From positions 548,541 to 612,540 of the forward strand of contig KN834773.1 in NCBI GenBank assembly GCA_000827265.1: 64,000 nucleotides of DNA, read 5' to 3'. Numbering within the stretch: position 1 is the stretch's first letter; each line of letters begins with the position of its first letter. The translations under genes and the position numbers were made by a program. This document shows, in pieces, positions 31,462-52,949 of this stretch. The notes beneath the pieces were generated by a model. The model worked only from the letters and a program-made list of their open reading frames with translations, was not told where the DNA came from and did no database searches. Origin of the DNA: Collybiopsis luxurians FD-317 M1. Lineage: Eukaryota; Basidiomycota; Agaricomycetes; Agaricales; Omphalotaceae.

Positions 31462-32600
31462 ATGTCTTCTTCATGCTTTGACAACCACTACATAGGCCGT
31501 TACCGCCGATCCTCACCCTGTGAGCTTTATCCATTTGGCATTGCGTCGTTTTTCAGGTTTTCATGTTATTTGTATCATCCTAGATACACCTCCCTCATCG
31601 CCCGAGGTGGACGAAGTTTCCTCGACTGCAGAAGCAGGTACGTTACTTGTTACCCTCAGTTGAGATGGTCAAGTTCCGGTTTGACTGAATGGCTGTCCCG
31701 CAGGCCTTACCTTGAGAGAATGGGATATCATTTCTTGGATGCGCGCCAATCGTAAGTTTGGTTTCATGTATCACCAGCTAAGAATATGTATAACCAATCC
31801 AACTTGTTCGCTCAACAGCCAGCAAGCCGTTTTATGTCGATGCAGAAAGTAAAATCAGTCCACTTGATGGGCATGAACGATCAGTATCGAGAGTTCATAG
31901 GTCATCCTACTCTTCGCGGACGACAGATCATCGCCGCCGGAGCGGCAGCCGTTCTGGTTCTGATTCGGAAGAGTGCGAGAGGGTTGATTTGACCAATGAG
32001 GCACCGGTGCCCGAACATGGTAAAACTTGGCTTACAAGTGGACTTTTCAGCTGGTTTCTGACACTATGGTCCTATATAGACCAATGGAGCAGAAGTGACT
32101 CCAGGTCTAGATACCGCAGCGGTATATCGCCTGGAGCATTCAGCTCGGTTGCTGGGAGCCAACGAATCATTTACAAACGGGGTGAGTCTACCTCCTAGGA
32201 TATCCGCCAGGTTTTAGGGCAAAAACTAACCTCGTTGTAACCTCATTGCTCTGCTTAGACGGTGATCGACCCATCATACAAAACAGTACAGGTTCAAGGC
32301 ATGCACGCCGATCTTCAGGTGATTAAAAGCGATTATCGATACGGAAGACTTGAAAACTCACTTTATTCTGTAGGATACCGCTCTTCCAATAGATCTTCAG
32401 ATTCGCGGACAATGACAATGTCAGGCGCCAGTGTTCTTCACGGCGCGTCAAATTTTGTCATCAGTGGGTCGCGGATTGCTCCAGGCGCGTTCAGCGCTAT
32501 CGCTGGCGATCAGGAGATATGGTCAGTCATTCTCGTGTGTTGTGGAAAGTGAGCTTGTCAGGACTGATGATTGATATTCTGTTTACATAGGGTGGACTAA
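31462..32600 (+). CDS. GAFSAV-motif protein 1 (intact, two motifs)
   Basis: Eight exons join in frame from ATG 31462: MSSSCFDNHYIGRYRRSSP, TPPSSPEVDEVSSTAEAG, LTLREWDIISWMRAN, PASKPFYVDAESKISPLDGH with an Arg/Ser-rich stretch, SRYRSGISPGAFSSVAGSQR, DGDRPIIQNSTGSRHARRSS, GASVLHGASNFVISGSRIAP then GAFSAIAGDQEI, and a final WVD with TAA 32598-32600. All introns but the last are phase 1. About 245 residues, no signal peptide or membrane segment. The N-terminal domain (E-W-D-I-I-x-W-M-R-A ... P-F-x-V-D-A-E) is shared with the decayed copies at 16314-16663 and 19415-20438. The C-terminal motif is shared with the genes up to 52949. Function unknown. Confidence 0.8.
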
Positions 32601-32870
32601 ATGAATACCAATGATGAAATACGGTCCCAGAATTAATATGGCACTCTATGCTCTCGTGTTTAAAGTATACACGCTGGAAGATTAACAACGCAGATAGTAG
32701 ATCTTTGTCTATATATAATTCTCTACAGGTTTCAAGCAAATAATACATACAACAGTTTGCTTCCATGTGATATTCAGCTGGCACAGAGAGCATTCACTTT
32801 GGTGAAGCCTAAAAATTCATTAACTGAGGCCGACTATGAAGCCGACAGAGCGATGGAAGATTAAGGAGGG
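32601..32870. other. Spacer between motif gene 1 and a mobile element
   Basis: 3' flank of the preceding gene; nothing else seen. Confidence 0.4.
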
Positions 32871-34025
32871 TATACTATAGTGGTTAGGGAAAATGAAATT
32901 TTGACGAAAATGCTAATAACTTTTCAAGATGTTTGAATATTACAATTCTGAGTAGATAGTTCAATTACTAGTACTTCAATACTGTTGATTTGAATTTCTG
33001 AGATTTTTCTTGATTTTACTGACTTCGTCGGGCAGAGACCGAGGGGGATTAAGGAAAATGCACTTATTTGTCACAGTGTTGTCACGGAGACGGCGCAAGT
33101 CGGCACTGCGGCAAAATGACAGATTCAGGTCCGAGCGCATTCCGCAGCTGCGAGCTCGTTCAATGAGTTTAGAAACAGAGAATTTAGGAGAGCGTTCAGT
33201 CCATTGAACAAATGTACAGAAACAACTATGGTATATTAAAACTTTCATTCATTATAGTGTGTCACTGGGAGTATCACTACGAGCACGTCGAAGAAGGGGA
33301 ATAGGGACAGGACAAGGGCGAAGTGGTGTGTAAGGTAAAGCCTGCATTGTAGCTAGGGATGACGAAGGGTATTGAGAAGTAAAAGGATAACTAGTCTGAG
33401 GCTGGGGTGGATTTTCATGCCCAAATTGACGAATTGGGCTCTGAGTAGTTGGTGGAAGAGAAATGGGGGACTGAGAGCGACGACGATATGATGAAAGCCC
33501 AGCGAGACTTTACAGGCTTCATTTGGAGTGATTTAAGCAAGGTCATGGTGATAGTTCGCGTCGATGTTTACTGCAGTATAAACTTCAGTGGCGAGCGCAC
33601 TTGCCTTGCATGCCGAGGCTACGGCACTCCCTTCCCACAGGTCGCTGTCACGCTCGACTTCCCTTTTGCTTCGTTTTACTCCTCATTCTTTCAATATTGC
33701 ACATACTCTTTTGAAATTTGGGATTTAGACTATGCTAAATGTACTCTTGAGCCTCAGCTACTTTTGCGTACATATCCCATTCACTGTTGTAATGTTCCTG
33801 ACAGTTTGATCGAAGTATTCGGTTGAGGACAACCATTATTTCGTCAATAATTCTGTTTTCTCTCGCAAGATGCTCAATGCAAGTAGATAGAAGTATAGAT
33901 TAGGACCTAAATATGCTACAAAAAAATTGTCGTAGCCATCTAACGACCGGAAGGCCTTCATTTTGGCAAATTTTCGAAGATTTCATTTTCCCTAACCCTT
34001 CATTTTCCCTAACAACCATAGTATA
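32871..34025. mobile_element. DNA transposon remnant with GGTTAGGGAAAATGAA-type inverted ends
   Basis: The left end (TATACTATAGTGGTTAGGGA at 32871) is inverted at the right end, where the TTAGGGAAAATGAA block is present twice in tandem (33980-34016). Outer TATAC/GTATA fits a TA target. Inside, the minus strand has an open frame of about 80 codons without a start (33248-33490): RRRSQSPISLPPTTQSPIRQ, then YTPLRPCPVPIPLLRRARSD, Pro-rich, perhaps the end of a lost element-encoded protein. The element separates motif gene 1 from the rest of the array. Confidence 0.65.
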
Positions 34026-34672
34026 AAGATTCTGTTCAATCCCAACTTCAATCCTTTCTTGCGTCATGTAACGATTCGCATCTATCAGCGGCTGTGCGAC
34101 CCTAGACGACTAAATACCGCATCTCTCGGGGTCGATACTCTCCGCATGCGCAGATCCGAGATCCTCTGAGATATTCAATTCAGCAAACTCTCTAACGTAC
34201 TTCGATTCCTGAAGCTGGGACCTAAAATGATGAATTTGGAACAAGTGACCTTCTTGAAAGTCGGTAGTAGCCCTCGGGCGTCGACCTTGTATATATTCAA
34301 CCCATATGGTCCTCTTTTCAAAACCCCGACTTTCTATTTCAGTTCTCTGACGGCATATGAGTGATATCATTTGCAATTGAAGAATCCGAGTATTCTCTTC
34401 TTTTGAATCTGAATGTGGCAGCATTCCTCGGTCAAAGAGATCTATGTATGTAGCTGAATGATGCATGATTCGTCTACTCGGCCTCATGCTTTGGTGAGCT
34501 ATTGTTCCAGAAGCAGGTAGTCAGGGACTACTACAAAATTACTTTTTGGGAACGTCGGTGCCACTCGAATGACTCGGAGGTAGTCAAGCCACAAGCGCCG
34601 GAAGGGGTATAACTTGAACTTGTAACGAATTAACTCTCAATACCGCATAATATTCTACAGATTCACTCTCGA
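34026..34672. other. Spacer before motif gene 2
   Basis: A minus-strand frame at 34110-34487 has no recognisable domain. The last 150 bp is probably the promoter of the gene at 34673. Nothing else seen. Confidence 0.3.
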
Positions 34673-35614
34673 ATGGCCTCCTCTGATCATCAACATTCCT
34701 CCTCTGATCATCGAACTCATGAGAGGAGAAACTCTCACAGCGAAAGGCGGAATACTAACCCACGTATGTAAATCCGCTTTTATGATGAGTTCTTGTGACA
34801 TATTCATGACTCATTCCTTCAGATGCGTCCTCTCATGGCGTGCCCCATGCCTCCAGTCCTCGCGCAGACCCTACCGTGCTGCACGGTTCGCAGGACTGGC
34901 AATATATCGGAGGGACGATGCTACCTGGGTCATTCAGCGCCGTAACCGGCAACCAAGTGATTCAAAAGCGTTCGCCCCATTCTGCCTCGTCATCTGTTCG
35001 TCCCTCCTCTCATCGACAAAGTAACTTTTTTTTCTTGATCTTCTGTTCTTCGTTCACTAACTCAAATCCCCCAGCCCACCACACTCCTAAAACCGACCTC
35101 AGCGTTCTGCGTGAATATCACCGTCATGATAATAGAGATCCGTACGCTGCTCCTTCAGGGACTACCTTTGGAAAAGCATCCTTTAGTGCCGTGGCCGGGC
35201 ACCAGGACTTTATATACGACCGATACTATACTACAACTGAACGCAGTACGTCCAACATGCAGTAGCCCCAAGTCTAGTGAATCGAATATTTTTACAGCAC
35301 CTCATCGTGTCCTTGACCGTCAGGACCAACTACCGCGCTTTAATGCTTACACAAGTCGAAATTACCCTCTCTTCAAGCCCGGAAGCCACAGCGCCGTTCA
35401 TGGACATTCCGGAACTGGTGGTCCACACTCACCCAGCGTTCTGATGGATGCCCGAGGCTTCCGTGCACATGGGGGAACGTTCGAGGAGGGGTGTTTCAGT
35501 GCCGTGGGTGGAAATCAAGAAGTGTGGTTCGACGAGCCGCAGCATCACAGACAGTATGACCATCGAGACTATCGTGGATCGGATTCGCACCACAGCCGCA
35601 GCAGCAGGCACTGA
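34673..35614 (+). CDS. GAFSAV-motif protein 2 (four motif copies)
   Basis: Four exons join with phase-1 introns from ATG 34673 to TGA 35612-35614. Exon 1 encodes a Ser/His/Arg-rich start (MASSDHQHSSSDHRTHERRN). Exon 2 has motif 1, VLHGSQDWQYIGGTMLPGSF then SAVTGNQVI. Exon 3 has motif 2, TTFGKASFSAVAGHQDFIYD. Exon 4 has a shortened motif 3, FKPGSHSAVHGHSGTGG, and motif 4, VLMDARGFRAHGGTFEEGCF then SAVGGNQEVWF, followed by a His/Ser/Arg-rich tail. About 250 residues, no membrane segment. Exon order and motif order are the same as in the next two genes. No enzyme motif is visible; repeats with alternating hydrophobic and Gly/Asn/Gln positions suggest a stacked beta structure. Confidence 0.8.
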
Positions 35615-36656
35615 GGGACCGTCACGCCAGTCCTGATGTGGATTTGCTGTGAAACTGCTGTGAAAATGCTGTAAGCATTTCAATGTTGGTGCTATATTCT
35701 TTTAGTTTTTTGGTTTTTTTTTTCGTAATTGAGCTATCCCATATCGAGCTTAAACAGTCGGCTAGTCTTTTATCGTAGTATTATTTTAAAAGCTGTTAGT
35801 ATCCACCAAGTGAATGAATCAATTTATACCATTGATTATCGAGGTCTTCGGTCGAGTTGGACCTTCGTACTGATGATACGCGAAAATTACGAGGTCGATC
35901 ATCGGCCTAAATTTGCAAGAAAAAGAAAATAAGCGCCCTCCGGTAAGATACATCCCGTGTGGTCCGCCACGGACCGTATTACGACATTCAAAATATTACA
36001 TAATTTCACTGGTTTCAATACACTCTTGCCCTAGTTCTAGAGTTTTGCTCTCAAGTTAGGTTCCTTCGCATAGGATACCCTCTAGCGCTTATCCTACCCA
36101 CGCTGCGTTCGGTCGGATTATCTGCACAATCAACGACGTTCCTTCCCCAGCGCTTGAGAATTATATGTCATGTAACCAAATCAGTACGCAAAAGCTTTCA
36201 ATCTCGGCAAAATCTCACTTCAGATGCTTCCACTGAGGAACCGTCACAGTCGGGGGTAGATATAATCCGCTAAACAGCATCCAGACGTCCATTCATCTGG
36301 TTTAGTGCAAGCTGTCGAAGTGCTGTTGTACTGCTGTGAAGTTGCTGTTGCTTGCTGTTGAATGCGCTGTGGGGCCGAAATTGATCTTATGGTATATCTT
36401 CCTGTGTCTGCTTATCACGGGCCACTCTACTTCCTTCGTTTAAACGCCTTAAACCTGATTCAAATTAACGCTTCAAGGCGCTTGAACTATGTTTAGTGCG
36501 AACTCTAAAGGCAAGCACGTAACGGTCTCTCGATGAGTGACTGCTTTGGCACAGAATATAGATTGCATGAACGAGGCTAGAGTATACTTATACAAGGCTG
36601 TGAGCCTACCTTCCGGATAGCCATCCCTCCTTCATTGTACCTTGACGAACATCAGA
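35615..36656. other. Spacer with a relic of a motif-gene 3' end
   Basis: At 36235-36370 the sequence CACTGAGGAACCGTCAC followed by repeated GCTGT words matches the 3' end of the gene just upstream (CACTGAGGGACCGTCAC at 35608, then GCTGTGAAACTGCTGTGAA). This indicates an old tandem duplication whose coding part has been lost. The rest is non-coding. Confidence 0.5.
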
Positions 36657-37575
36657 ATGAGCAGCAATCCGACCGATATTTTCATCGAAGACTCGGACGG
36701 AGACTATTCGGTAAATTTGTTGGAGGGTATTGGACAAGTCGATGGTGAGTCCGCTCTTCTGGATCATACCATGTTCAATAACTGTCAAAAAAGCACACGG
36801 AGTCCGTTATATTGACAGCCAGACGTTCTCAAGGCCATCAGGTCTTGGATTCAATGGCAATGGCGCTAACGTACTCAATGGCACATCGTCATTCACATTG
36901 TCCCAAGCCACCATCCAAGCCGGAGCGCTGAGTGCAGTTGGAGGGCAACAAAGAATTTATGTCAAAGGACGGAAGCCTTCGCGGAACAACAGCCAAAGTG
37001 AGTTTAATCCTCAAGATTACGAAGCGCATCTGGCGTTCGAAATTGTAGGCGACTCGATGAAGCTGATTCAGGTAATAGTAAAGCCAGGACATTATACTAG
37101 CGGAAGCGGCGCAGATGTTTTAGCGGATTTCGGAGGAGGAATGCTCCCAGCAGCTACCTATGGGGTTGGATCGTTCAGTGCAGTGGGAGGATTCCAGGAT
37201 ATGCGACTCCACAGTGCAGGGCGACGTCCAGAGAGTCTTTCCTCGGCTGCAGTTTATAGTGAGTCCTTGCATTCTCAGGTAGAAGAGCTTATTTGACGTT
37301 TTCCACAAGCACCTCGACCGAACGTTCTACCGAATGTAAACGGCAACTCCATTCCCGGGCCTGTGGATGGGTATTATGCTGATGGGCAGTACAGTGCTAT
37401 CTCAGGGTATGGAAGCGGGGCTGCTCCAAGCGTTCTGAGGGACTTTAATGACTTCAATGGTCATAACGTGACACTTCGGGCAGGAGCCTTTAGTGCTGTA
37501 ACTAGGGACCAGATTATCGAGTATGATGAGGGCGACGAAACGGAAACTCTTGACAGAGAACATCGTTACAGATAG
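36657..37575 (+). CDS. GAFSAV-motif protein 3 (four motif copies)
   Basis: Four exons with phase-1 introns from ATG 36657 to TAG 37573-37575. Exon 1 is acidic (MSSNPTDIFIEDSDGDYSVN). Exon 2 carries motif 1, ANVLNGTSSFTLSQATIQAG then ALSAVGGQQRIYV. Exon 3 carries motif 2, ADVLADFGGGMLPAATYGVG then SFSAVGGFQDM. Exon 4 carries the short motif 3, YYADGQYSAISGYGSG, and motif 4, VLRDFNDFNGHNVTLRAGAF then SAVTRDQIIEY, and an acidic end. The intron between exons 2 and 3 is bounded by GTGAGT and an acceptor at GGTAATAG; reading through it is also open, so retention is possible. About 230 residues. Same architecture as its neighbours on both sides. Confidence 0.8.
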
Positions 37576-38225
37576 CTACTAGGAGGTAACAAAATTTCCT
37601 TCTTTACCACAACCGTTTCGATCTGAAGATTCTCATATATACACTTGTTGTCGTCCCACAAAGATGTTCCATGCTGGAAAATCCTATGTTATTCTACCCT
37701 CGAGTCGAAGATGTTTCACTTGCAGTTTCCGAGTCGCATGCGGGAATGCTTTCATAACAAAAATATTATAAGGGCCAATTTAGTATAGTACAAGCCAAGT
37801 GAAACATGACCCGCTGAAAGGTGACTGCTCTGACGGTGGCCTGAATACCCGCAGTCACTTGTCACACTGCTAAACATTACTGGTCCCCAACTGGTCCCAG
37901 CTCTCAGGTCAAGTCCATTCCACGCTATATATGCCCCTTGGATTCTTCTTTCATCACTCGCGCCTTTTTCGGTTACAGCCAGGTTATAGCTTCTTGCCGC
38001 GAGCGCTTACAAGGTTGTCCAAAACTTAGAAGCTAATCATAGAAAAACCGGAGATCGACTTTTACCGTTCAGACGACGCACAAAGTTTTGATTCGTACTC
38101 TAGCAATAACAACCCGATGAACAGCTTGACTCCAAGTTGGACTTCGTCTCAATAGAGTTCCTTGGAACGCATAAAACCCTGAGCCCCAACTGGCCATAAC
38201 TCATGCGGATTCTGAATTCACTCAG
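37576..38225. other. Spacer and probable promoter of motif gene 4
   Basis: A TATATATG box near 37926-37934 is followed by CT-rich sequence. This may be the core promoter of the gene at 38226 with a longer leader or a non-coding first exon. No gene seen. Confidence 0.35.
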
Positions 38226-39174
38226 ATGAGCTTACACTCCCACAGGACCGTACGCTCTGCTTATGATAGGCCCTACGGAGGGCGCCAGTCTGACAGAGAC
38301 ATCCCGCCTAGAGAATCTCCGCGCAGTATGTTCTCTTTTTCTATAACAGGTGGGGGCTGACTTGATGTATTCGTCAGACCCTTTCAGGGAGCGACCTCGG
38401 CACTCCTCTGCAAGAGGCAGGTTATCTCATTCTGCTCCTACCATGGGGCTTGGTGCCCAAAATTGTAGCATAGAGGATGGCTACATCCATCCAGGTGCAT
38501 TCTGCGCCGTTTCCGGAAACTTTACTTCCCAGGGTGTTCCCGCTGATTTACAACCTTTCTCCTCACGACCTGAAAGTATGTAATGAATATCTGCCTCTTT
38601 CTGTCTGCTGCTAAATCCTGAAACGAAAGGCCGATGGACTGCCAATCTCAAGCCCAATCCGAGTGTCTTGCGTGATTTTAATGGCGGTGTTGGCCATTTT
38701 TACTCCCACCCCCAAGGGTTGACTTTTGCAGAAGGCTCCTTCGCTGCAGTCTCAAGAAATCAAGATATTATTATGGCTAATGGTGGAGTCTCGCGCTGCG
38801 TAGGCAGTACGTTCATGTTTGATTTCTGTTCTTGAATCCGACCCTCTGACCTTCGACGCTCCTCCACATATATAGCTAACTCTACCGATGTCCTTGCGAG
38901 CCAATCCCAGTTACCGCCGGCCGGGAGCCACTCTCTCACAACGTCTTCGTTCGCTCCTGGGAGCTATAGCGCCGTTTCGGGCTATCAAGACCCAGGGCCA
39001 CTTGCACCCAATGTCCTCATGGCGGCTCGAGATTTTCACAGCCGAGGAGGCGTCTTTAAGGAAGGATCATTCTGCGCCGTAGCAGGAAAGCAAACATTAC
39101 TTTTGCACAGAAGAGAATCTAGGCTTTTTGACGAAGATGGCCCATTCTTGTACCACCGCCCGGGGCAATCATGA
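38226..39174 (+). CDS. GAFSAV-motif protein 4 (four motif copies)
   Basis: Four exons with phase-1 introns from ATG 38226 to TGA 39172-39174. Exon 1 is Arg/Ser-rich (MSLHSHRTVRSAYDRPYGGR). Exon 2 carries motif 1, MGLGAQNCSIEDGYIHPGAF then CAVSGNF. Exon 3 carries motif 2, VLRDFNGGVGHFYSHPQGLT then FAEGSFAAVSRNQDII. Exon 4 carries motif 3, SFAPGSYSAVSGYQDPGP, and motif 4, VLMAARDFHSRGGVFKEGSF then CAVAGKQTLLL. About 240 residues. In this copy the Ser before A-V is Cys twice (F-C-A-V). The 3' half of the gene and the downstream flank are duplicated, in decayed form, at 44405-45500. Confidence 0.8.
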
Positions 39175-39981
39175 GCCAGCCTGGTTCATTGGTCGGAAAT
39201 TACTTGTTCTCTCCCGTGGCATTCCTTTCGTATTTGGTACGCTTCTGGAAATATCAGACTTTATTTCTTCTTTGACAACACCGCCTTCGCTAAGTGATTT
39301 CTTTCCATCTATAAAAGGAAAGAAGCAAACGTTGAATGTCACTATCTAAGAACTCAATGTCGGCTTTCTACCTCGATGCGACCGAATAGAGGAACACTAT
39401 TAGGCTCTTGTCGTCGCAGAGTTTAGATCACTTTCGTCCTTATGGATATAAAGATCCCGTCGTGGAGATGTTTTAATAGGCTGCGTTCGGTTTAACTCAG
39501 ACAGGACATTTGTTTCGTTCGTTCGAGAATAATTGGTAGAAGAATTCGTCTCCGACTTCCCCGACCAATGTATGTAGATCGGTTCAATTTGAGCGCTTGA
39601 GAAACTGCGTATGTAGGATGGAGCATTTACGAATCGTGTACTTTCTGACGACGAATTTCCGCGATCTGAGGAATTTTACGATTGGTCAGGCCGATCTTAT
39701 TATTTAGAAATACAGGGTTGCCTTCGATTTGGGTACCTACAACAACGCGACAAGCACGGGAGGAGTAGATGTCATATTAAATGTGGTATGTACGTGCAGA
39801 TTATTTGCGCCGGATGCTCAGTCCATCCAAAATGGCCATCGGGCGCGGTTGGCATTTGGCAACCTAATGGAACGGATCTAGCTAAACGGCAGGGCGTAAG
39901 AGCTTCTTCGTATCTTATAGACTCATCCCAGAATAGATAAATAGAAAGTATATAAACTATCAACATATCAAAGTCTCCATC
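39175..39981. other. Spacer inside the duplicated block
   Basis: Non-coding. Much of it is recognisable again at 44934-45845 (for example GCTAAGT next to CCGCCTTCG, and ACATTATTAGGCTC-type blocks), so it belongs to the segmental duplication. Promoter of the gene at 39982 expected at the right end. Confidence 0.5.
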
Positions 39982-40951
39982 ATGTCTTCTTTCTCATACA
40001 TCCTCTTCGGGCTGGCCACCCTGATACTCGCGGTATCCGTAGGCTACGTGCTTGGACAAAGGAATGGCGAGCCCAAGAATACCGGTGAGGGCGGAAAGTC
40101 AGTATCTTGAATCTTTGTCTTCGAGCACGTTGCTCAATAACCTCTTAGACTAGAGACAAATTCTGAACCGGCTCAGAAACGTCACCCAACTTCAGCGTCT
40201 TCCTATGAAGCTCAAACTCCACCGGTGGTGACTATGCAGCCTGCAAGCTCGGGCAAGTTCTTCTCCTGTTGAGCATCATAATGCTAATGCTAACCTCTCT
40301 TATAGACGACCACAAGATTAGCAAAAATGATTCAGATGCGGTTGTCAAGGTTAGTGGATAGTTTACCGAGCTCCGACGCAAGCTGAACAAGCTTTGGATC
40401 CTCACAGCAGAAAGCAGTTGCAATCGGTAAGTAGCTTGTCGGATTTGACTATAATGATTGGGGATCAACGATCAAAAACCTTTGCCTTTCAGATGCTGTC
40501 AATATGATTGTAGATCATTTACAAACGCCGGCGAAGATTCCAACACAATCTATCTCAGAGCCGAGCGTACTCGAAGGGGCCTCAGGGGTCAGGTTCATTG
40601 GCACCCGTGTTGGCCAGGGTGCCTTCACTGCCGTGGCAGGTGATATGGTCATTGGATACGATAGTGATACATCACTAGGTAAGTGCGGCATCTATGGTAG
40701 ATTCAACGAGCTGACGAGACACCTTTTATATCTGTGTAGAACCATCGGATACTTCTGAAATCGCGGATAACACAGTCGCAGCACCTAGGGCCCTCAGAGG
40801 CGTTCGAGACATGGTGGTTGCAAATTCAGAGGTACAAGGAGGGGCGTTCACTGCGGTAGCCGGAGACGCGCGCATCAGTTTGCGCGAGCAACGTAGGGAA
40901 GCGCCCCCACTTTATTCAGAGGCCAATCAAGGGCAAAGATTAGTGGCTTAA
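39982..40951 (+). CDS. GAFSAV-motif protein 5 with N-terminal membrane helix
   Basis: Six exons join from ATG 39982 to TAA 40949-40951. Residues 4-26 (FSYILFGLATLILAVSVGYV) form a membrane helix or signal anchor, followed by a charged linker (GQRNGEPKNTGEGG, KRHPTSASSYEAQTPP). The fifth exon carries motif 1, VLEGASGVRFIGTRVGQGAF then TAVAGDMVIGY, and the last exon motif 2, LRGVRDMVVANSEVQGGAFT then AVAGDARI. About 225 residues. One intron (40253-40306) appears to use a GC donor (GCAAGT) where the paralog at 45846 has GTAAGC. The motif carries Thr for Ser (G-A-F-T-A-V-A-G-D). A protein that displays the motif from a membrane is a different layout from its neighbours. Confidence 0.8.
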
Positions 40952-42433
40952 AAGTCGAAGCGCTTGGCCCTTGGCTCGCAGTGAACGGTGCCAAAACTCA
41001 CAATGAACGGTGTCAAAAATAGAACATTTTTTATGATTTTTTATCGATAAGTTTTGTTGTTGTACTTTTAGACTGTCGTCCAAATAGAAAAGAATAGTGG
41101 TTGGCAGATTTGCCCAAACGATGTATATGTTGGAAGAGTTCGAACAAAGCTCGGCGGGCGCTCGGAAGGCGCCATGCCCACGGATTGCACGTCACCGTTT
41201 GTTTTCATCTTCCTGGACTTCATGAGCGCGAACTCTTTAAAAGATGGTCAACTCTTCAAACGAGGCCCTACTAGATACACCTCTAAAGGCAACCTGAACT
41301 TGTCTTTTTTCATGCTTTCGTTCTCTCTTTTCGGTTGTAATTTTGGTTGCTGTGCTTGCCACCTGAAGACACGACGAGGACACCTCTGTGGGTCCGTACC
41401 GACGCTTTCTTATTGGCTAAAGGCGTTGTTTATCGCGGTATACATGTCAGGGTATAAGAAATGACTCGCCCATCGTGTTTCCCTAGCTAACTTTCCCTCC
41501 CAACCTTCCCGCCCGTCCAAAAATGCTCGGCGGGCGCTTGGAAGGCGCCATTCCCACGGATTGCACGTCACTGTTTGCTTTCCAGCTACACTGGCGCTCA
41601 AAACTAATTGACCCCCCCCCCCAAATTGAGTAGCATTTTCACACGGGGCTCAGAACCTTCACCTCGGGGGGAACTTAATATTGTAGCAGTAGAAATTATA
41701 TGAAAGGTCTTTATGAAAGAAAGAAGTAAGCAGGAGGCTGAGTTTGCTGCTTGAGAACTGCTGGCTCAGCGAACATCGAGGAAGAGAAGGGTTTGAGCCC
41801 CCGTGGGAAACCACCTACCCAATTTGGGGGGACGCACCTTACTGATCGTGTTTACTGCCAAACAAACATCCTATTCATTGCTCCACCGATGCCGGGACAA
41901 GGCTGTTTTCGGTCACGACACTGTGTGAAGGCCTAAAAAACTGGGTCGGTCGCACCAATCGAGAAAAATTACCAAGAAAGGCAAACACTGATTTTTGCAT
42001 TGACGATGAACTCCTCCAAGTATTACCAGGCTCACTTCTCGAGAACCATCTCCGTTCAAGGCCTCTGCTTCTACACTTCTTATACAAAGATTCTACATAT
42101 CCTCCAGTCCGAAAGAGCTTTCTGTAGCCTGAGGGCAATCACCGTTATAGGTGGCACTCGACGGTCTCAATCTTCCCGCCTTCGTGTCGGCGGGGTTACT
42201 TGCCAGTTATGGGGGAACGATAGATGACCATTGATGACCCGGCATTAGTGGATGAAGGCGTATTCGAGCTCTTGCTGGTTATAGGCATCTCTCATTGTGT
42301 TGGTGGTATGTGACTGCAATTTTCCGGGCATTTTAATATACAAAAAGGATTTCATGACGCTCGCTCTTCAGCTACTCAAACCCCCATGTTTACCTTCTTT
42401 TGGCCGTTGAATCCCTCTGGATATCTATGACAG
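40952..42433. other. Spacer with duplicated promoter-like sequence
   Basis: Up to about 41225 this matches 46826-47105. At 41399-41527 lies a close copy of 47808-47936, which is the region just upstream of the DUF6699 gene, and after it GCTCGGCGGGCGCTxGGAAG recurs (41145 and 41526). A C-run of 13 bases is at about 41609. From 41640 to 42430 no gene is seen; the plus-strand string DELLQVLPGSLLENHLRS near 42006 looks protein-like but is isolated. Confidence 0.5.
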
Positions 42434-43349
42434 TCAAAAATCCGCCGTTCGAGTAGTAAACGCACCGCAGCTATGGAAATAGTTGTGGTTGTGTATGACA
42501 ATATTCCGCGAATCGTTTACACACACCGTACTGTGTTAAAATCTCCGCCTCCGATAGTAGCCTCCGCATCGGCAAGGGTGGTTGTGGGACTCATGGCAGA
42601 TGTAATATTGGTACGTGGTGCCCTGGGGGTATTGGATGAAGGTTCATTTGAGTTCCCATTGCTTGGCCGTTGTTCCTGATGGTCTTCCAGTATTTCGTCT
42701 CTTAGCTTCGTAGATCGCTCTTCTTCCTGTCGGGGAATCTTCAGCCGAGTTAGCCCTTACTGTGCAAAATCGGTTACTCGTTCGTTGCACTAGCTATGCT
42801 CAGTCTTACCTCAAGATCTACCCGCCTCTTCTTTACTTCCTCCTGAAGCTTCTTGACTCTCCTCAAGTCCCGCACTCGCATCAACCATGCCGTGAAGCTG
42901 TTTCGCCGACACAACACATCTATCAGCTGTTTACAATCTTCTACTGTCCTGCGTTCGACACAATTTGTTCAAAGTTATTCAAACCGAATATGTAGCATCG
43001 TAGGCTGACCTAAAGAACTCCTGGAATCTGTTCTCAAGCTGGCTCAAGATCTCCTCTCTCTGCTGCTCATCTGCTCTACCGTGCTCATATAGCACCATGT
43101 TCAAGACGTTTTTGACCTCGTTCGATAACTCTCTAATTAGCTTTGCGTGCCTTAACAAGATGTCCGGTGATTCGGTCTGTTCGTGAGCTCTGCTCAATCT
43201 GCCGTACCATCCAGACAAAAGCTTAATTGACTTGCCTTGGTTTCGATATCCCTAACCATTGCCTTCGATTTTTCAAGCTTTTCCAGAGTCAGCAAGTACT
43301 TTTCTTCATCGGCACCACCAGCTGTTGTTGTACTTGATACATTCGACAT
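42434..43349 (-). CDS. Coiled-coil protein ending in a GGGDF-type motif
   Basis: Minus-strand exons from ATG 43349 (MSNVSSTTTAGGADEEKYLL) contain TLEKLEKSKAMVRDIETK, then SPDILLRHAKLIRELSNEV and VLYEHGRADEQQREEILSQL with ENRFQEFF, then TVEDCKQLIDVLCRR, RVKKLQEEVKKRRVDLE, and IPRQEEERSTKLRDEILEDH. It ends SPTTTLADAEATIGGGDFNT followed by V-R and, after a possible intron, CGAF to TGA 42434-42436. The protein is mostly helical. The end matches the family motif (A-x-x-T-I-x-G-G-x-F-x-x-V). The junction between the first two exons does not keep frame with a standard GT-AG intron (a GC donor leaves a phase problem), so the model is incomplete or the gene is damaged. It is transcribed against all its neighbours. 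Confidence 0.5.
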
Positions 43350-44092: not shown

Positions 44093-44933
44093 ATGCCTCG
44101 GGGAAGACCGAGACATGAAAGAGAGCGAATGGTTGAACAGAGCTCTTACGCATCATCGCACAGTTCAGATATGATCAGCGACGATACTTGGTCAGATAAA
44201 GATGGCTGCTCGAGTGATTTGGAGAAAAAATCCTGCTCTGGAATACGTCCGAGTTACCACTCGCCGTCTATCAGATCCGTCACTGGGCTCCGAAAGTGCT
44301 CCGGAGAACTTATTGCAGGAATCGGGGCCGTGGGCAGGGACGGATCGGATGGTCGGATGGTCGGATGGCGAGGATGATTGAAGAAACTGATGACAACTGA
44401 AGGAAAGCCTGAGCATTTGATCAGGAATATTCATTTTGATGGCGTTATTTACAATCCTTACGCCCATCCTTGAGGGTTGACTTTTGCAGAAGGCTCCTTC
44501 GCTACTGTCTAAAGATATTATGGCTGATGGCGGAAGTCTTACGCTGCGTAGGCAGTACGTTCATGTTTGATTTTTTTTTCTTGAATCCGGCAATCTGACT
44601 TTCGATGGTCCTCCATATATAGCTAACTGTACCAACGTCCTTCCGAACCAATCCCAGCTACCGCCGACCGGGAGTCACTCTCTCACACGGACGTTTTCGT
44701 TCCTTCCTGGGAGCTATTAGCGCTGGTTCTGGCTATTAAAACCCAAGGCCACTTGCACCCACTGCCCTAATGACGGCTCGACATTTTCACAGTCGAGGTG
44801 TCTTTAAGGAATGATCGTTTTGCGCCGTAGCAGGAAAGCAAAGATGACTTTCGGACAGAAGGGAATCTAGACCTCTCGACGAAGATGGCCCGTTCATGTA
44901 CCATCGCCCCGGACGTTCATGAGCCAGGCTGGT
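44093..44933 (+). pseudogene. GAFSAV-motif gene 4 duplicate, decayed
   Basis: From about 44405 the sequence follows the 3' half of the gene at 38226-39174: GGGTTGACTTTTGCAGAAGG is shared exactly, then the next exon's intron, the exon CTAACTxTACCxAxGTCCTT, and the end up to CATGAGCCAG. Stops and small deletions interrupt every exon (for example GAGCTATTAGCGC for GAGCTATAGCGCC, and TGAxG for the A-E-G-S-F block). The open frame 44093-44377 (MPRGRPRHERERMVEQSSYA ... GELIAGIGAVGRD) may be the remnant of its 5' part, since G-I-G-A-V-G-R-D resembles the motif core, but it does not match exon 1 or 2 of the source gene. Confidence 0.75.
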
Positions 44934-45845
44934 TTAATAGTCAGAAATTGATTTTTTCTCTTCCGTGGATCTCGTGGTGCATTCTTTTGCAGTTTGTGCG
45001 CTTCTGGAAATATCAGACTTTATTTCTTTCCGCGTTCCCGTTCGAAGACACCACCCTTCGTAGTGAATTCCTTCTTGTAGTTTGTGCGCTCTTGGAAATT
45101 ATTTCTTTTTCGCTTTGGCCTTCGGACACACCGCCTTCGCTAAGTAATTCCTTTCCACATATTAAAGGAAAGGAGAAAATTCGTTGACTGACACAGTTCG
45201 AGACTCGGCTTTCTAACCAGATGCGACCGAACACAGGAACATTATTAGGCTCTTTCGGTTGCAGAGCCCGTTCACTTTCATGGATAAAAAAAGTCTTGTC
45301 TGAAGAAGTTCTATGCCATGTTCGGTTTAGCTCAGACAGGACATTTATTTCGTTCATTCAAGAATAATGGCGGGAAGAATTCCTCTCCGTCCTCTCCGAC
45401 CGACGTATGTGAGTAGATCGGTCAATCTCAGTGCTTGAGAAACTGCGTATGCAGGAGACTTTACAAACGAAGCTCCGCGAATCAAGGAAGGTCGTGGCGA
45501 TTTTGATGGTCGGAAAGGCAGGGCTGCGTAGGGTTCTGGCAAGTACGAACGCACGACAAGCACGGGAAGATTAGATGCTCTCCTTTGCTCTTCCCACTCC
45601 TGATGTGAAGTACAATTGTTCGAGGATTGAATTTCCCCGGTGCAGATCAGGAGCGGAAACCCAGTCGTACCGAAGTGGCTGTCATCGCGTTGGATTGGCA
45701 ACCGACATATACTAAAAAGTCGTTCGAGGAACGGATCTCGATTAGAGGCTTCATCTTTTGTCAGAATATTACATAGTCAGCGTAACTGTATATAAACGTA
45801 TCAATGATTCACACTCATAAGCCCTCGACAAGAAGAATCTCCACT
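44934..45845. other. Spacer of the duplicated block
   Basis: Counterpart of 39175-39981. It also contains a local tandem duplication at 44990-45110 (AGTTTGTGCGCTxxTGGAAAT twice). No gene seen. Confidence 0.5.
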
Positions 45846-46825
45846 ATGTTTTCCTTTCCATCTAACATCGAAGTGCCCTCCTGGCTCGCTGCTCTGGTAA
45901 TCACGGCAATAGTAGGTTACTACGCGCTTGGACAATGGATTCGCAGACCCAAGAATACCAGCGAGGCCGCTGAGTTAGTATCTCGAATATCTATCTCTCC
46001 AAACTCGCTGCTCATAAAGCTCATAAACAGGTCTCGCAGACCGGAGAAAACAGCTGAGGAACACCAGGCAATTCCGACGCCTTCCTCTGAAACTCGAAAC
46101 TTATCGGTACTGACTCAGCAACCTGCAAACGCAGGTAAGCTCTTCCAGTCTCTGTGCGTTACGATGCTGATCCTATGTATCTTGTAGGCGAAGGCAAGAT
46201 TAGAAAAAATGATTCTGATGCGGTTGTCAAAGTTAGTGAATAGTGTTTTACATTTGATGAGAGCTGAACAAGGTATACCTTATCCTTATAGCAAAAAGCA
46301 GTCGGTGAGTAACTCGTTAGATTCGAGTAGAATGGCTGGTGATTCGAAACCCTCGCCCTCTAGATACTGTCAATATGATTGTGGATCGTTTGCAAGCACC
46401 GGCAAAAGTTCCAACGCAATCTATCTCAGAACCGAGCGTACTCGAAGGGGCCTCAGGGGTCAGGTTCATCGGTGCCCGTGTGGGTCAGGGTGCCTTCACT
46501 GCCGTGGCAGGTGATATGGTCATTGGATACGATGGTGATACATCGCTAGGTAAGTGCGGCATCTGTGGTAGATGATTCAACGAGCTGACGAGACACCTTT
46601 TATATCTGTGTAGAACCATCGGATACTTCTGAAATCGCGGATTACACAGTCGCAGCACCTAGGGCCCTCAGAGGCGTTCGCGACATGGTGGTTGCGAATT
46701 CAGAGGTACAAGGAGGGGCGTTCACTGCGGTAGCCGGAGACGCGCGCATCAGTTTGCGCGAACAACGTAGGGAAGCGCCCCCACTTTATTCAGAGGTCAG
46801 TCAAGGGCAAAAATTAGTGGCTTAA
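45846..46825 (+). CDS. GAFSAV-motif protein 5 duplicate with membrane helix
   Basis: Six exons join from ATG 45846 (45804 is an in-frame alternative) to TAA 46823-46825, matching the gene at 39982 exon by exon. The N-terminus MFSFPSNIEVPSWLAALVIT continues AIVGYYALGQWIRRPKNTSE, again a membrane helix followed by basic residues. Motifs: VLEGASGVRFIGARVGQGAF then TAVAGDMVIGY, and LRGVRDMVVANSEVQGGAFT then AVAGDARI. The last two exons are almost identical in DNA to those at 40500-40951, while exons 1-3 differ widely. That unevenness suggests gene conversion or selection on the motif part. The frame is open, unlike the neighbouring pseudogene that came with the same duplication. Confidence 0.8.
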
Positions 46826-47960
46826 TAGTCGAAGCGCTTGCCGTCATCGGGCCTTGACTCACAGGGAACGATGCCAAAACCCACAGTGAAGCAATAGAAC
46901 ATTTGCATGATTTTTTATCGATAATTTTTGTTGTTGTACTTTTAGATTGTCGTCGCAAATAGAAAGGAATACTGGTTGGCAGATTTGCCCAAACGATGTA
47001 CATATTGGAAGAGTTCGAACAAAGCTCGGCGGCCCGTCGGGCGGGCGCTTGGAAGGCGCTATTCCCACGGATTACACGTCACTGTTTGTTTTCATCTTCC
47101 TGGACTTCGCTGTCGATTTCTACATTACCAGAATTGCACGGAACCGAAAACGCTGTGATATCTAGGGTCCTCATTCTGACTCTAACGGTCCCGACGTGGT
47201 CGTCGGGCATCTGCAGCCCATCGATGCAGTAATGTTGATGCAGTGATTGCGATGAAACTGTTTTGTTCGATACCAAGCCTGCAAGCCTCGGCAAAGATCT
47301 TCATACGGCGGTGGGAGGAGAAGGGATCAATTGCTGCAAGGCAGTCGAGTTGTGTGCGCACTTAGAACGTCTGAACTCCCAGATCCCGTAAGTCAGCTCT
47401 TCAAAATTAGCGGATACCTCAGTTGCAAATAGCCTACTACAATGCATCTCCAATGTTTTCTCCGCTCTTCCGCCGACCTATTTTCGTGAATCTCACCCTA
47501 ACAGCATGCATGCGGGCTTTTGTCCATAGACAGCAAAAATCCCGCTCAAGAAAGCGCCTAGGCGCCCTCAGATTTGGGCGCTTAAAGTCATATCAATGAC
47601 ACATAGATGACACATGTCGGGACCGACACTCGGTCCCGTCCTGCGTTTCCCTAAAATAGTATAGCAGCATATGAAGGGCGGCTTCTGGTCCTTTTTTATC
47701 TGATCTTGCGTAAATTTTACTGATGGATTGACCCACAAACTACCCAACTTGGATAAATTTGCGCGACACGAGGCGCATCGTTTGACAGCCCGCCTCCCAC
47801 CGCCCTACCGACGCTTTCTCATTGGCTAAAGGCGTCGTTTATGGCGGTAAACATGTCAGGGTATAAGAAATGACTCGCTCATCGTGTTTCCCTAGCTAAC
47901 TTTCCCTCCCAACCTTCCCGCCCGTCCACGTTTTGGACCAAAATTCTACAATTTTTGACA
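46826..47960. other. Spacer and promoter of the DUF6699 gene
   Basis: Matches 40952-41225 at first (ACGATGTAxATxTTGGAAGA, CACGGATTxCACGTCAC), then unique sequence. 47808-47936, immediately before the start at 47961, is the block copied at 41399-41527; it has TATAAGAAATG-like and CT-rich leader sequence. Confidence 0.5.
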
Positions 47961-48795
47961 ATGTCGTCTTCTCACTACTCTAAATCCGCCCATTCCGCCC
48001 GCTCTCACGGAGATTCCGAAGTCGAGTCCTGGGGTACCGTCTACTCTGGATCACGTACCCCGACACCGACCCACTCTGCCGTGCCGCCAAATGCATACGC
48101 CCATCGATCCAATGCGTCATACCCCTCCCCACATTACGGGCCGTCCTCATCGTTCGGCGGATTCTCGCCCTCATACTCTCAGACACCTGGAACACCGTAT
48201 CTGGGCTCAGTTTCACTACCCCAGCAATATTGCGTTTCGCCTGTAACTCCTTCAGGACCCCATTTACTTTCTGTTCCTCTCCCGGCTGGTGAGTACAAGT
48301 CCGTGCTGCTTACGTTACTTCTTCATTCTTACCAGCTGGGTTTTAGAATCTGCCATTAATCCTCTCTTAAAATATCCCCCAAAAGCGGTTTTCAACGTCA
48401 CTTATTCATGCAGCTCAATTGCTTTTCGCGATGGCCTTACTTCTAATGATGTCGCCGTGTTTCCCCCAGTGCATTCGATGGTCATTGTCCTATCTATCTG
48501 TCATGCCAAAAAATTTACCGTGACCTCTTCCTCCCCTAACGGTGTAACTGTACATGATATATTGATCGCTATTTCCAAGTGTATGTTCTCTGCTCCTCAG
48601 CCTTATGAACTTTCTTCATTGCATCCCAATATTGTTGCTCGCGGCAAGGCATCTCAGATGGCGAGAAGAAGAATGAACGATACCACCGGTCTAAGGTGGC
48701 TAGACTTTCTCGGAGACTGTGTCTACTTTGGAGGTCTGGTCAAAACTCCCAGCGGCTCGTACGAGGTCGGTTTCGTCCCTACCCCTCTGGCATAA
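47961..48795 (+). CDS. DUF6699-type protein
   Basis: Two exons from ATG 47961 to TAA 48793-48795, joined by an intron with GTGAGT at 48291 and acceptor at 48347. The N-terminal half is Ser/Pro/Tyr-rich and probably disordered (MSSSHYSKSAHSARSHGDSE, TPGTPYLGSVSLPQQY). The C-terminal half fits the mushroom DUF6699 layout: INPLLKYPPKAVFNVTY, a VFPPVHSMVIVLSICHAKKF strand pair, VTVHDILIAISKCM, and a tail RRMNDTTGLRWLDFLGDCVY with FGGLVKT. About 255 residues. The biochemical role of this family is unknown. It lies inside the motif-gene array and has its own promoter block duplicated 6.4 kb upstream. Confidence 0.75.
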
Positions 48796-49778
48796 GCGTC
48801 CGCGCAAGCCGATGGACGTTACGCATTTTTGGTTTCTATCTTCCTTATCATCTTCTTATCACACGGCTGTTCTGTCTTCTGATCCTGTGACTTCTCCCGC
48901 GACTACTTTACGTCTTTCCTTTTTTTCAGAACCTTACAACCCTGTTTCACAATTGCTGTATCTCATTTTTTTCGGACTCTGTAGCTATCCCTCTTCATTG
49001 TAGCATACCGTAACCTGTCATGTATTGAAACATTTGTTGCTTTGCGGTCTCTTGCACTAAATTCGAGTAATTTCCTTGGTTGTCATAAATATCTCTCTGG
49101 ACCTTTTGTTTTTTATTTTCTTCGCAGAAATCTTGATACCTCTGAATTTATTATGCAAATCGTGATTGAGAAGAGATAGGCACTCATGTCGCCGTTGGCT
49201 ACAGGTATACACGAACTTGCGTTATCCCGTCTTCTCCTTGTGCGTTGTACTTACCCGAATTTCGGCCCCCCTTAAACTCCTCTACTTACTAGGAGCCGAT
49301 TCTGAGTAGCGACTTTCATGAGATATCAAGCTTCGAAGGGCGTCTCGAAAATGTTCCAAGGGCGATCGGGTTTCCCACCGGAAGCTATCGGTGGACTTTG
49401 CAGCGCGCGAATGATTGATGATTACTAGGTAGTACCATCGGTGAAGCATGTCTGCGAGGCTACGACTCGGAAACTGTCCCGACGAACAGATTCAGATCTT
49501 GATATTCTTGTCGGCTAGCTTTTCAGACCCTCGGGGTGTCACGATGAAGCCCCTTTTTTTATACATACAAACTACAGTTTGTTGCGGTGCGTGGGCGCGA
49601 GTGGGAAGACGGAACTAACCTTTCGAAGCCCAGTTCAGAAGATGAACTGGGGGAAATAGTTTACGTTTGTAGCTATGTAAGCAATGAATATTGAATAGTA
49701 TTTGGATGATTGAACATCAGTGACAGTTGAGTACATTGTCTACCATCTGTTCTACTCGGCTCATCTCTTTGACGAACA
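48796..49778. other. Intergenic stretch
   Basis: T-rich 3' flank of the DUF6699 gene followed by unique non-coding sequence and, near 49700, the leader of the next gene. No gene seen. Confidence 0.4.
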
Positions 49779-51098
49779 ATGCCTAAAGACTACACAGAGA
49801 GAGAGAAGGTACATCTTTCGTCCACACGTCAACGCACGTACGCTCCATACGTACCCGAAGATTCGAGCCATAGCAGCTTGCGCCATGGACTCTTGTCTCC
49901 CGAAAGCCCATGGGAAAGGGGGGACACGGCACTTGCAATAGCCTTGCGACAGGCAAGCGTACCTCTTCGAGGTTGGTTTATTCCCTATGGCATCAACGCT
50001 CGGATTGTAGTAACCTTCCAATAAGCTGCACGGTACCTACAGTCCGAGGTCAGCAGGAACAAGCGCAGACGAATAGTAGAAGATGAAGACTCGGACGCGT
50101 ATGAAGAAGATGGCCGGAGTTTGAACGACAGAAACGATGACTCTGACGAAGATGGTACGTATGGACTCATACCGTTTGAAATGAAATTGAGATTAACTCT
50201 ACGTCCCTCACTGCTAGAGTACGTGACAATGAAGGTGACCAGGAGGGAGCGGCAAGAAATTCTTCAGCGCAGAGAAGAGCGAGGTGTGTGCTCCTCGTAA
50301 CGAATGATACTATTGTGGTCTTTACCAAGTTATATGCGGGTAGCACCTCGTCAAAGCGACGACTTCTTCGATGAACGAAGCTACAAAAGGAGCGAACGGG
50401 ATGGTATGTCCCAGTAATCTTGTCCCTCACACGTACCCACAGCTCATCTTGAGTGTTTAGAAGCGCGTCGGTATCGAGACCAAAGGCGAGAACGTGCTGC
50501 TAACAGCGGTGTTAGTATGCTTAGCAATGCTCGTGGTGTCACTATCAACGGGGGAAGTATGTCGGTCGTCGGTCGTGATCAAACAATCAGTATGCTAGAT
50601 GCTGTCTGCTCGCAGAGACGTTGCTCTCACACTTGCTTAATCAGTTGAAACCATCGACGAAGGGAATCCTCGCCAACCGGAAGCCAGGGCAACGAGATTT
50701 CAAAGTCCTATAATGTCGGACAGAAACGAACGAAAAGGTTATTTGGTGTTACTGAATTGCCGCTGAATCTACCTCTCATCTTTGAAACGTATCCTTCCTA
50801 GCCAAGGGCTTCCCGAAATTAAATGGAACTGGCAGAACAGGACTTCGAGACGACTCACCTGAATGTCTCACATCGCCTATGGGTACGGAGATCTCTGCAT
50901 GCGTCACAGAGGACGTTCGAATTAGTGGAGGAAGGACTTCAGCGGTGCATAGAAATCAAACTACGAGTGAGTTGATTTACGATGGTATCAGGCCACAGTC
51001 CTCATTATGATTTTTTATTAGGGATTACCCGACCAATGCTCAATCGATGGGGCACAGGCAACCTTCCGACTCCCCCTTCAGAGGGCTACTACTATTAG
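49779..51098 (+). CDS. GAFSAV-motif protein 6 (two diverged motifs)
   Basis: Exons join from ATG 49779 (MPKDYTEREKVHLSSTRQRT) to TAG 51096-51098. The first junction seems to use a GC donor (CAG|GCAAGC at 49950) with acceptor before 50041, giving SEVSRNKRRRIVEDEDSDAY, a nuclear-localisation-like basic patch next to acidic residues. All later introns are phase 1. Charged exons follow (VTRRERQEILQRREER, PRQSDDFFDERSYKRSE, ARRYRDQRRERAANSG). Motif 1 is VSMLSNARGVTINGGSMSVV then GRDQTI, motif 2 is EISACVTEDVRISGGRTSAV then HRNQTT. The end is Pro/Tyr-rich (PTPPSEGYYY). The motifs here are the G-G-x-x-S-x-V-x-R-x-Q form. About 280 residues. Confidence 0.75.
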
Positions 51099-51735
51099 TG
51101 GTACTGCCGTTTCCAGACTCTCTTCGCGTCGGTCTGGAATGCTTACAGATAAATTCCAAAGTTTAAGTGTAGAACAACCTCAACCCAACTTGTTCTTTAT
51201 TTTAGGCCACCCGGTGCTCAAACGAAAGACTATCAAAAGAATTGTCGTCCGTTTTGTTGACCCTGGTCTCCAGCACCTGCTCTTCTTTACGAAAGATGAG
51301 TAGCTCTACGAGCTAGCTCAACTATGCTCTTAATAGGAGCCAATTAATCACTTCCATTGACGGACTTTCCGAAGGCTGAGGATCTGAAGAGTCTACTTCT
51401 TCCGCTTTTCAATAGTCGATGGCTATACTTAATGAATTCCTCCGTCTAGACCGCTTTGTTCATGTACTTTGTTATGTGTACAGTAATGTACCTGAAGCCT
51501 TTCATTTCGCTGCAACGGACAATGGCGAACCCGAACATTGCCTTGCTGGTTTCGGTCTTACATATGATATTCATTTCAGCGTAAGCGTTCACACAGAAGC
51601 TAAGCTGTTGTACACGTGTTGGCGGTGGTTAGGACGGATTAAGGGAAAAATCAGCACCGCTTGGTCCTGTAGAGCTTTGTATTAAAATAAGGCGGCTGCT
51701 CGTCTTGTGATATTTTCAACTTTTCCCTTCTCACA
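51099..51735. other. Spacer
   Basis: 3' flank of one motif gene and promoter of the next. A short plus-strand frame at 51419-51685 is not convincing. Confidence 0.35.
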
Positions 51736-52949
51736 ATGGACTCGAGGCAAAGATGGTCGGCAGACGATGAAGAATTTTCTTTCGATGGTCCTCCAGGTCG
51801 ACCAGATCACAGAATGATGGTCCCAGCTCAAAAGTGGGTCGCATGAAATGCATTTTCGCCTGTCAATAATTGATCAAACATATCAATAGCTCTCAGCGAT
51901 CGCTTGCACCGGGAGGTGGACGAGGACGAGGATGGAGGGGCAATGACGCTTTTGAATACGGTCAGTAGCCACTAAAAAAACTGAGAGTGCCTGTCTCTGA
52001 TTTTCCAAAATGTGTAGATGTTGTAGATGTGTCCATTTCGTATGAGGAGTTGGAAATGCTCAGGCTGCTTAAAAGATACAGAAGCAAGTTCTCTGCTCGT
52101 TCAAATTGTATTCGTTACACTAAAATTTTTTATTTTAGTCAACCGTGTCGCACAGCTGCAACAACTGATAGAGTCTGGCTACGAAGATAAACCGCAAGTC
52201 GCTGTTTCTGGAGCGAACGCATTTGCCCTCGCGAGTGGATTTTCGATTAGTGGAGGGAATTTCTCGGTATCAGGGAGAGATCAGCATGTAATCAGTACGT
52301 CCCCTCCGCTCAGATTCGTGCTTGTGCTAACTGGGCTTATTATCCTATCTAGCAACTCGCACAGGGAATGCTGGTATGATGGAATCGCGGGAAGAAAACG
52401 CCATGTTTCTCGAAAACTCTGGTGCTGCTAATGCACCGCGCATTGAGGGTAGCCGCTCTTCGCAACGTCAGTCCGAGATCACCTACTTGCCTCGCTTTAT
52501 TGCTCGTCCTTAGCCAAATTTTTCCTCGACATAGATCTTATCGCAAACCAGCCTGAAAACGCATATCCCACTACACGGCAACTGGAATACTCCTCTTCAG
52601 AAGCTGGACCAATTTCGCACTACAATGCTCCAGGTTAGTACAAGTCAGTTCCTTCCAAAACAAACGCTATATCCACTCACCTTGCACCGGCTGCATTTAA
52701 GCCTCTCGGAATCCGTTCGCTAACTACGTACGTGCCCCTCAATCTCTTGAGAATGAAAGATATTCTTCCGACATTGCTCCGTTTCAAAGAACTTTGCCTC
52801 GTAGACCGGTGACCATCGAGGGGCCTAGTGTCTTGGCCAACGCGAACCAATTTGTTTTTGACAAGGGGGTGGACATTCACCCTGGGGCTTTATCCGCTGT
52901 TGGCCGCAATCAAATCATATACGAGCAAGAGCCGGAAGAGGGAATATGA
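51736..52949 (+). CDS. GAFSAV-motif protein 7 (two motifs, RG-rich and helical N-terminus)
   Basis: Seven exons join from ATG 51736 (MDSRQRWSADDEEFSFDGPP) to TGA 52947-52949. Exon 2 has a GGGRGRGWRG patch. Exons 3-4 form a leucine-rich helix (YEELEMLRLLKRYRSKFSAL, NRVAQLQQLIESGYEDKPQV) followed by motif 1, ANAFALASGFSISGGNFSVS then GRDQHVI. After two linker exons (RTGNAGMMESREENAMFLEN; LIANQPENAYPTTRQLEYSS), the last exon gives VTIEGPSVLANANQFVFDKG then VDIHPGALSAVGRNQIIYEQ, motif 2, and an acidic end. The motif-1 exon has a 40-nt upstream intron, shorter than usual. Nearly all introns are phase 1. About 280 residues. This is the right edge of the array. Confidence 0.75.

Follow-up and report, generated by a model that had tools for sequence, protein, structure and literature searches.

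What does a cluster of mushroom genes encode when its members are built from one short motif, repeated on differing carriers? The question is raised by a 64,000-nucleotide stretch of Collybiopsis luxurians FD-317 M1, here called the window, which occupies C25:548541-612540 in a genome of 64.26 Mb and 200 contigs (C1 and similar labels denote contigs of this genome, C25 being the window's own). The original prediction, made from the letters of the window, had described ten loci between 31462 and 52949 that share a motif with the core GAFSAVxGxQ. The sequence comparisons below give good support to the view that this motif is a divergent version of the N-terminal motif of the NACHT receptors (NOD-like receptors, NLRs) of the same genome, and the window genes are a real, locally expanded family predicted to carry an NLR signalling motif on proteins other than receptors. 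Short introns, the large NLR set and the type of motif all agree with an Agaricomycete. Of the explanations considered, we lean towards the one in which the products of the cluster act as non-receptor partners in NLR signalling, templated by the shared motif. Exon models were made from the DNA sequence alone with a splice-aware script and hand work, and genes are named by their first position in the window.

A regular expression of the core matched the six-frame translation of the window 18 times, with 13 matches in the genes of the original prediction, one in a relative outside its interval and four elsewhere, whereas 50 dinucleotide shuffles of the window averaged 1.64 matches and never exceeded 5. 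The expression was modelled on the copies themselves, and therefore the shuffle test shows an excess and not a discovery. The motif is 25–35 residues long and mostly multi-copy in the cluster. The spliced models reproduced the copy numbers given before (Table 1); in the four-copy genes 34673, 36657 and 38226, exons 2 and 3 each encode one motif and exon 4 encodes two. In gene 49779, for which two copies had been proposed, one strong copy was recovered, and the second, near 50910-50966, is weak and was seen by eye only. The claim of one module on different carriers held for membrane-helix, helical, RG-rich and Arg/Ser-rich models, and the local expansion, the pseudogene and the lack of a catalytic domain were likewise borne out: Pfam identified no catalytic domain in seven early gene models, the minus-strand gene or the corrected model of 31462. 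Genes 39982 and 45846 are modelled with the motif C-terminal, behind a membrane helix (maximum 19-residue hydropathy of 2.26 in the former; hydropathy of 1.75 in the latter). Introns of the GC-AG type with GCAAGT donors are likely in genes 39982 and 51736, judging from paralogue comparison and reading frame.

The link to receptors was found at the NACHT loci of this genome, where motif exons such as MFNRSHNFTISGGNFNNAGRDLN and VLSGASNFTIEGSSIFTAGRN, the latter from an NLR at C25:731k on the same contig as the window, precede the P-loop. Genome searches scored the best candidates only, so all genome-wide counts, including those of the motif, are lower bounds. PF05729 (NACHT) gave at least 85 scored matches among 264 candidates, and PF24883 (NPHP3_N) at least 151 matches from the 150 of 505 candidates scored; these totals are not exact NLR counts, because both families also match control prokaryotes (PF05729 in 14 of 14 genomes, three over the cut-off, and PF24883 in nine of 14, five over). 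From a sample of 40 of the at least 85 NACHT loci, an NLR profile was built that started from 11 NLR peptides and was extended over the 40 loci alone by iteration, with the window outside the training. The profile placed a motif at most 900 nt upstream of the P-loop in 29 of the 40 loci, which is a figure from the very loci used for training and not from a leave-one-out procedure, and gave no match in 11. No other match was obtained in these loci at an independent E-value (iE) of 0.05, and none in reversed peptides.

When the profile was run on the six-frame window, the first four matches were genes 49779 (iE 6e-6), 51736 (2.2e-4), 31462 (0.0081) and the minus-strand gene (0.23, at 42558), the first three being significant and the last not significant alone; the best match in reversed window peptides had an iE of 0.51. 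The minus-strand gene has one copy, of the NLR-like subtype, and the end of this motif may have decayed. A search of the 64 Mb with the 30-residue motif of 49779 returned the motif itself and three others (C21:366107, C3:755010 and C33), among which C21:366107 (E 0.0015, 68% identity over 25 residues; MSSILSNAQGVTINDGSFNSVARDQYIF) lies 276 nt before a NACHT match. When a profile of 13 window copies was compared by hhalign with one of 18 NLR copies picked by hand, the result was 92.5% and a score of 25.9, whereas 200 column-shuffled NLR alignments scored at most 14.5 against the window copies. A new, unnamed recognition family was rejected, since the motif matches NLR N-termini.

The consensus of the motif gave at least 21 matches in the genome, 10 in the window and 11 outside it, and at least 14 non-NLR places outside the window carry the motif, on C3, C14, C19, C24, C25, C33, C43, C134 and C170. 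The C33 place was weak by genome search (E 0.15), but the NLR profile scored it at an iE of 0.0036. A P-loop in a frame of at least 120 residues was present in none of the 14 outside loci (stretches of 1.4-3.2 kb, some of the loci appearing truncated) versus 40 of 40 NACHT loci; the window also had no P-loop in any frame of that size, and Pfam NACHT was not found in its gene models and 20 open reading frames scanned. One gene model, at C3:755k, holds an NLR-type and a window-type copy together. Gene 31462, the second copy of which (VLHGASNFVISGSRIAPGAFSAIAGDQ) starts at about 32436, has relatives on C24, C25, C43, C14 and C3. Predicted proteins that have no P-loop frame and bear two to four copies are new; in two of these proteins, the copies follow a membrane helix. 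Further non-NLR frames with NLR-type motifs were seen at C19:769900-771300 (LFSQSREFGINGGEFNAVGRDMH) and C33:147072 (ILSGSDDIAISGGNWSSVGRDQTI).

Also new is the membership of the minus-strand gene in a predicted helical-domain family with the motif in the last known exon. Its model consists of a helical domain of about 140 residues and a Ser/Pro-rich linker, followed by TLADAEATIGGGDFNTV. A genome search for relatives gave at least 17 further loci, six on C9, four on C7, three on C5 and one each at C25:105k and on C13, C16 and C135, with weak matches on C24 and C30 left out of the 17. At 13 of the 17 loci, the match extends at least as far as residue 199 of the 207 and so enters the motif; several of the frames hold stops, some of which are presumably introns. 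The six loci on C9 lie within 85 kb (C9:627939-712355), several with stops in the matched frame. Exons 2 and 3 are 167 and 139 nt in the window model and in the near-complete models from C9:634k, C5:153k and C9:711k, the C7 model being one without the first exon; the motif is in the last exon read, and the last-exon frames of eight loci are just 102-119 residues long. Among five tails fetched, the NLR profile supported the motif in four (iE 4.8e-4 for C9:711k, 6.4e-4 for C135, 0.0073 for C9:634k and 0.05 for C5:153k, all in small databases), and the tail from C7:520k (ATVGGGCISTVANDMY) resembled the NLR motif by eye only. By hhalign, the helical tails gave 82.6% and a score of 22.4 against the NLR motif, with 200 shuffles at most at 12.8, and 91.4%, a value without shuffle control, against the window motif. 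No NACHT or NPHP3_N match lay within 10 kb of the 17 loci among the matches listed. The comparisons show homology of the motif, at the level of sequence, in three protein contexts: at the N-termini of NLRs, in the helical family within the last known exon, and in linker-rich or membrane-anchored proteins with two to four copies.

For the helical domain itself, no known Pfam domain scored over the cut-off (best E 0.0094, for ATG17_like in one of five members), and no known structure was assigned (best PDB E 0.14 with one sequence and 0.91 with the profile). Its last helices may recall the MLKL/HeLo bundle, a likeness supported by no test. The HeLo domain (PF14479) was not found in the motif proteins scanned, and the two HeLo matches listed for the genome are not motif genes in the stretches fetched. 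One of these two, a HeLo-domain gene at C33:78600-79900, has a C-terminal double repeat that resembles a double HET-s motif. HeLo proteins with a double HET-s motif have been reported in two Agaricomycetes (PMC9815663), and the tail of the C33 gene is in line with them.

Paralogues were also compared. Gene 36657 aligned with C25:152k over 233 residues (70% identity, dN 0.218, dS 0.486, dN/dS 0.45, where dN and dS are nonsynonymous and synonymous divergence) and with C134 over 221 residues (66%, 0.276, 0.519 and 0.53), and gene 34673 aligned with the full-length, four-exon paralogue at C25:153k over 258 residues (73%, 0.154, 0.370 and 0.42). The gene models are thus supported by paralogues elsewhere in the genome, and the average dN/dS of 0.42-0.53 shows the predicted proteins to be under constraint. 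Identical residues were more frequent within than outside the motifs in 36657/C25:152k (100/129 versus 62/104, p 0.004), 36657/C134 (93/120 versus 52/101, p 6e-5) and the membrane-helix pair 39982/45846 (63/64 versus 100/156, Fisher p 4.5e-9), and not significantly so in 34673/C25:153k (106/141 versus 82/117, p 0.4); conservation of the motif therefore exceeded that of the rest of the protein significantly in three of four pairs. Genes 39982 and 45846 align over 220 residues with 74% identity (dN 0.151, dS 0.305). Their motif half has a dN of 0.032 and a dS of 0.172, and their N-terminal half 0.359 and 0.557; with both values reduced in the motif half, gene conversion may have acted alongside constraint, and the low dS there suggests some homogenisation as well. 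After the segmental duplication that produced this pair, one 38226-type copy decayed and the membrane-helix gene kept its motifs.

These results divide the earlier view of the cluster as resembling fast-evolving self/non-self loci. A link to such loci exists through the homology to NLR N-terminal motifs, but positive selection is not supported by dN/dS averaged over whole proteins or by the greater conservation of the motifs, and "fast-evolving" is unsupported in that sense. The statement that no named family has this layout also failed, in that the NLR-side motif type is described in PMC9815663, and "recognition-like" does not fit a module whose position in NLRs is the signalling end. The same data bear on the idea that the motif is homologous to that of the NLRs and that the multi-copy proteins are decoys or sinks damping NLR signalling, or arose as side products when exons were duplicated. 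The pseudogene, the local duplication and the presence of several copies with no recognised output domain would fit it; we nevertheless consider it unlikely in view of the whole-protein dN/dS of 0.42-0.53 and the carrier domains kept between paralogues, both in the membrane-helix pair and in the helical family.

Because their motif is a divergent version of the N-terminal tag of the NLRs, the window genes are candidates for the largely unknown signalling partners of these receptors, and the layout of NWD2/HET-S, where the receptor bears one motif at its N-terminus and the effector two at its C-terminus, was counted by analogy in favour of partner proteins. Amyloid assembly, pairing with receptors and cell death are what we infer. 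An activated NLR would oligomerise, its N-terminal motifs would form an amyloid-like nucleus, and this nucleus would template the same motif in the partner proteins. The helical-domain and membrane-helix members would then be output proteins, the four-copy members could be scaffolds or amplifiers, and the likely outcome would be a cell-death or non-self response. To our knowledge, a four-motif scaffold that amplifies the signal is in no described NLR-amyloid pathway.

Several observations weigh against partner proteins of NLRs. Most GAFSAV-type copies did not reach significance when scored with the NLR profile, a spacer of about five residues is present in window-type copies and absent from NLR copies, and the NLR link of the window runs via the copies of 49779, 51736 and 31462 and the profile–profile comparison. 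The window had no NACHT or NPHP3_N match among the matches listed, unlike clustered ascomycete pairs. No known pore-forming or enzymatic domain was detected by Pfam in the motif proteins scanned. HeLo proteins were rejected as effectors of this motif, as neither of two HeLo genes had it in the stretches fetched. The position of the motif in the helical family is C-terminal by inference, because at loci beyond the window the stop codon was unseen. AlphaFold was uninformative for one two-motif exon (mean predicted local distance difference test score 42, predicted TM-score 0.13).

The lack of a confident AlphaFold fold fits neither or both of the amyloid reading and another, in which the motif is an ordinary, non-amyloid beta-strand interaction module through which the window proteins and the NLRs would bind one shared folded protein. 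We regard this module as improbable: the amyloid nature is putative, but the motif resembles the type picked by a published amyloid grammar in Agaricomycete NLRs (PMC9815663). Convergence, with the cluster in an unrelated role such as nucleic-acid binding by RG-/RS-rich carriers, would agree with the shortness of the motif, several weak individual scores and the RG- and RS-rich linkers, but is very hard to reconcile with profile–profile scores that none of 200 column shuffles reached in either family tested, a genome-wide search that matched an NLR N-terminus and the two motif subtypes in one C3 gene model.

The cluster and the helical family are candidate components of the downstream half of mushroom NLR signalling, which is still largely missing. 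It is quite possible, and we propose it tentatively, that they are this half in Agaricomycete NLR amyloid signalling, made up of single-motif receptors, new helical effectors, membrane-anchored two-motif effectors and amplifying four-motif scaffolds. With candidate partners bearing the same motif within a single genome, the question of what acts below mushroom NLRs becomes open to direct test, and four-copy scaffolds, if real, would extend the two-protein scheme of ascomycetes by a further component.

Table 1. Motif-bearing features of the window; positions are counted from its first nucleotide.
Feature	Position	Strand	Description	Basis
Relative of gene 31462	~19415..20438	-	Motif VLQGGSNIIINGSHIASGAFSAVTGDQ; outside the interval of the original prediction and missed by it	Partial model
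Gene 31462	31462..32552	+	Arg/Ser-rich; two motif copies, first degenerate	Exon model
Gene 34673	34673..35614	+	Four exons, four motif copies	Model and paralogue C25:153k
Gene 36657	36657..37575	+	Four exons, four motif copies	Model and paralogues C25:152k, C134
Gene 38226	38226..39174	+	Four exons, four motif copies; layout as 34673/36657	Models
Segmental duplication unit	38675..41519	+	Second copy 44433-47928	76-95% identical in pieces
Gene 39982	39982..40951	+	N-terminal membrane helix, linker, two motif copies towards C-terminus	Model, hydropathy
Minus-strand gene	42376..43349	-	Helical-domain protein; NLR-type motif TLADAEATIGGGDFNTV towards C-terminus	Model
Pseudogene (predicted as 44093)	44433..45028	+	Decayed copy of 3' part of gene 38226	blastn, 80.6% to 38675-39269
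Gene 45846	45846..46825	+	Duplicate of 39982; membrane helix, two motif copies	Model
Gene 49779	49779..51303	+	Strong NLR-like motif MLSNARGVTINGGSMSVVGRDQTIS within 50502-50591	Exon model and ends provisional
Gene 51736	51736..52949	+	RG-rich and helical segments; two motif copies: NLR-like from 52231, window-type core at 52884, C-terminus	First and last exons from separate runs, never joined in one

Near the cluster, a 719-residue open frame at 23156-25312 (+) has a DDE_1 transposase domain (E 4.4e-20) and marks a DNA transposon. Matches to KOW and SPT5 KOW1 slightly below the Pfam cut-offs at 10439-11239 (+) may belong to a gene for the elongation factor SPT5.

In a 2022 survey, hundreds of NLRs from Agaricomycetes were found to have amyloid-like motifs at their N-termini (PMC9815663). 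There, the motifs NLR05, 08, 22, 29 and 44 form an amyloid-like meta-family, picked out by an amyloid grammar and usually present in dozens per genome, with a 25-residue core, three hydrophobic positions and a C-terminal G[DN] pair at NLR N-termini; Table 1 of that paper lists neither neighbour carriers nor effector carriers for any of the five, and effector-side motifs are termed seemingly less frequent (PMC9815663). The effector side was not wholly unknown before, because two BaMLKL C-termini that share a motif with NLRs were reported in each of Moniliophthora roreri and Fibularhizoctonia (PMC9815663). Our literature search, which covered partial texts of articles other than subscription papers and preprints, returned no account of proteins other than NLRs that carry several copies of this motif. 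The NLR motifs of C. luxurians fit the description of the five-motif meta-family in their core of about 25 residues, hydrophobic positions, glycine-led end and place at NLR N-termini, a likeness judged by that written description; the window copies differ in lying outside NLRs, in two to four copies and with a longer spacer. In the NWD2/HET-S scheme of Podospora anserina, the receptor has one N-terminal motif and the effector two C-terminal copies (PMC12881547), and the system proposed here resembles it in a receptor N-terminal motif and C-terminal copies in a separate candidate partner, whereas its sequence is not HET-s-like, there is no HeLo domain, the copies number up to four and no receptor match listed is clustered with them. 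The Agaricomycete HeLo proteins with a double HET-s motif share with the helical family the order of helical domain and then motif, the motif here being of the GGxFNTVG type. BaMLKL is likewise an effector-like helical protein that shares a motif with NLR N-termini, but two such proteins occur per genome there, whereas here the family has at least 17 further loci and a helical domain that is not MLKL- or HeLo-like by Pfam.

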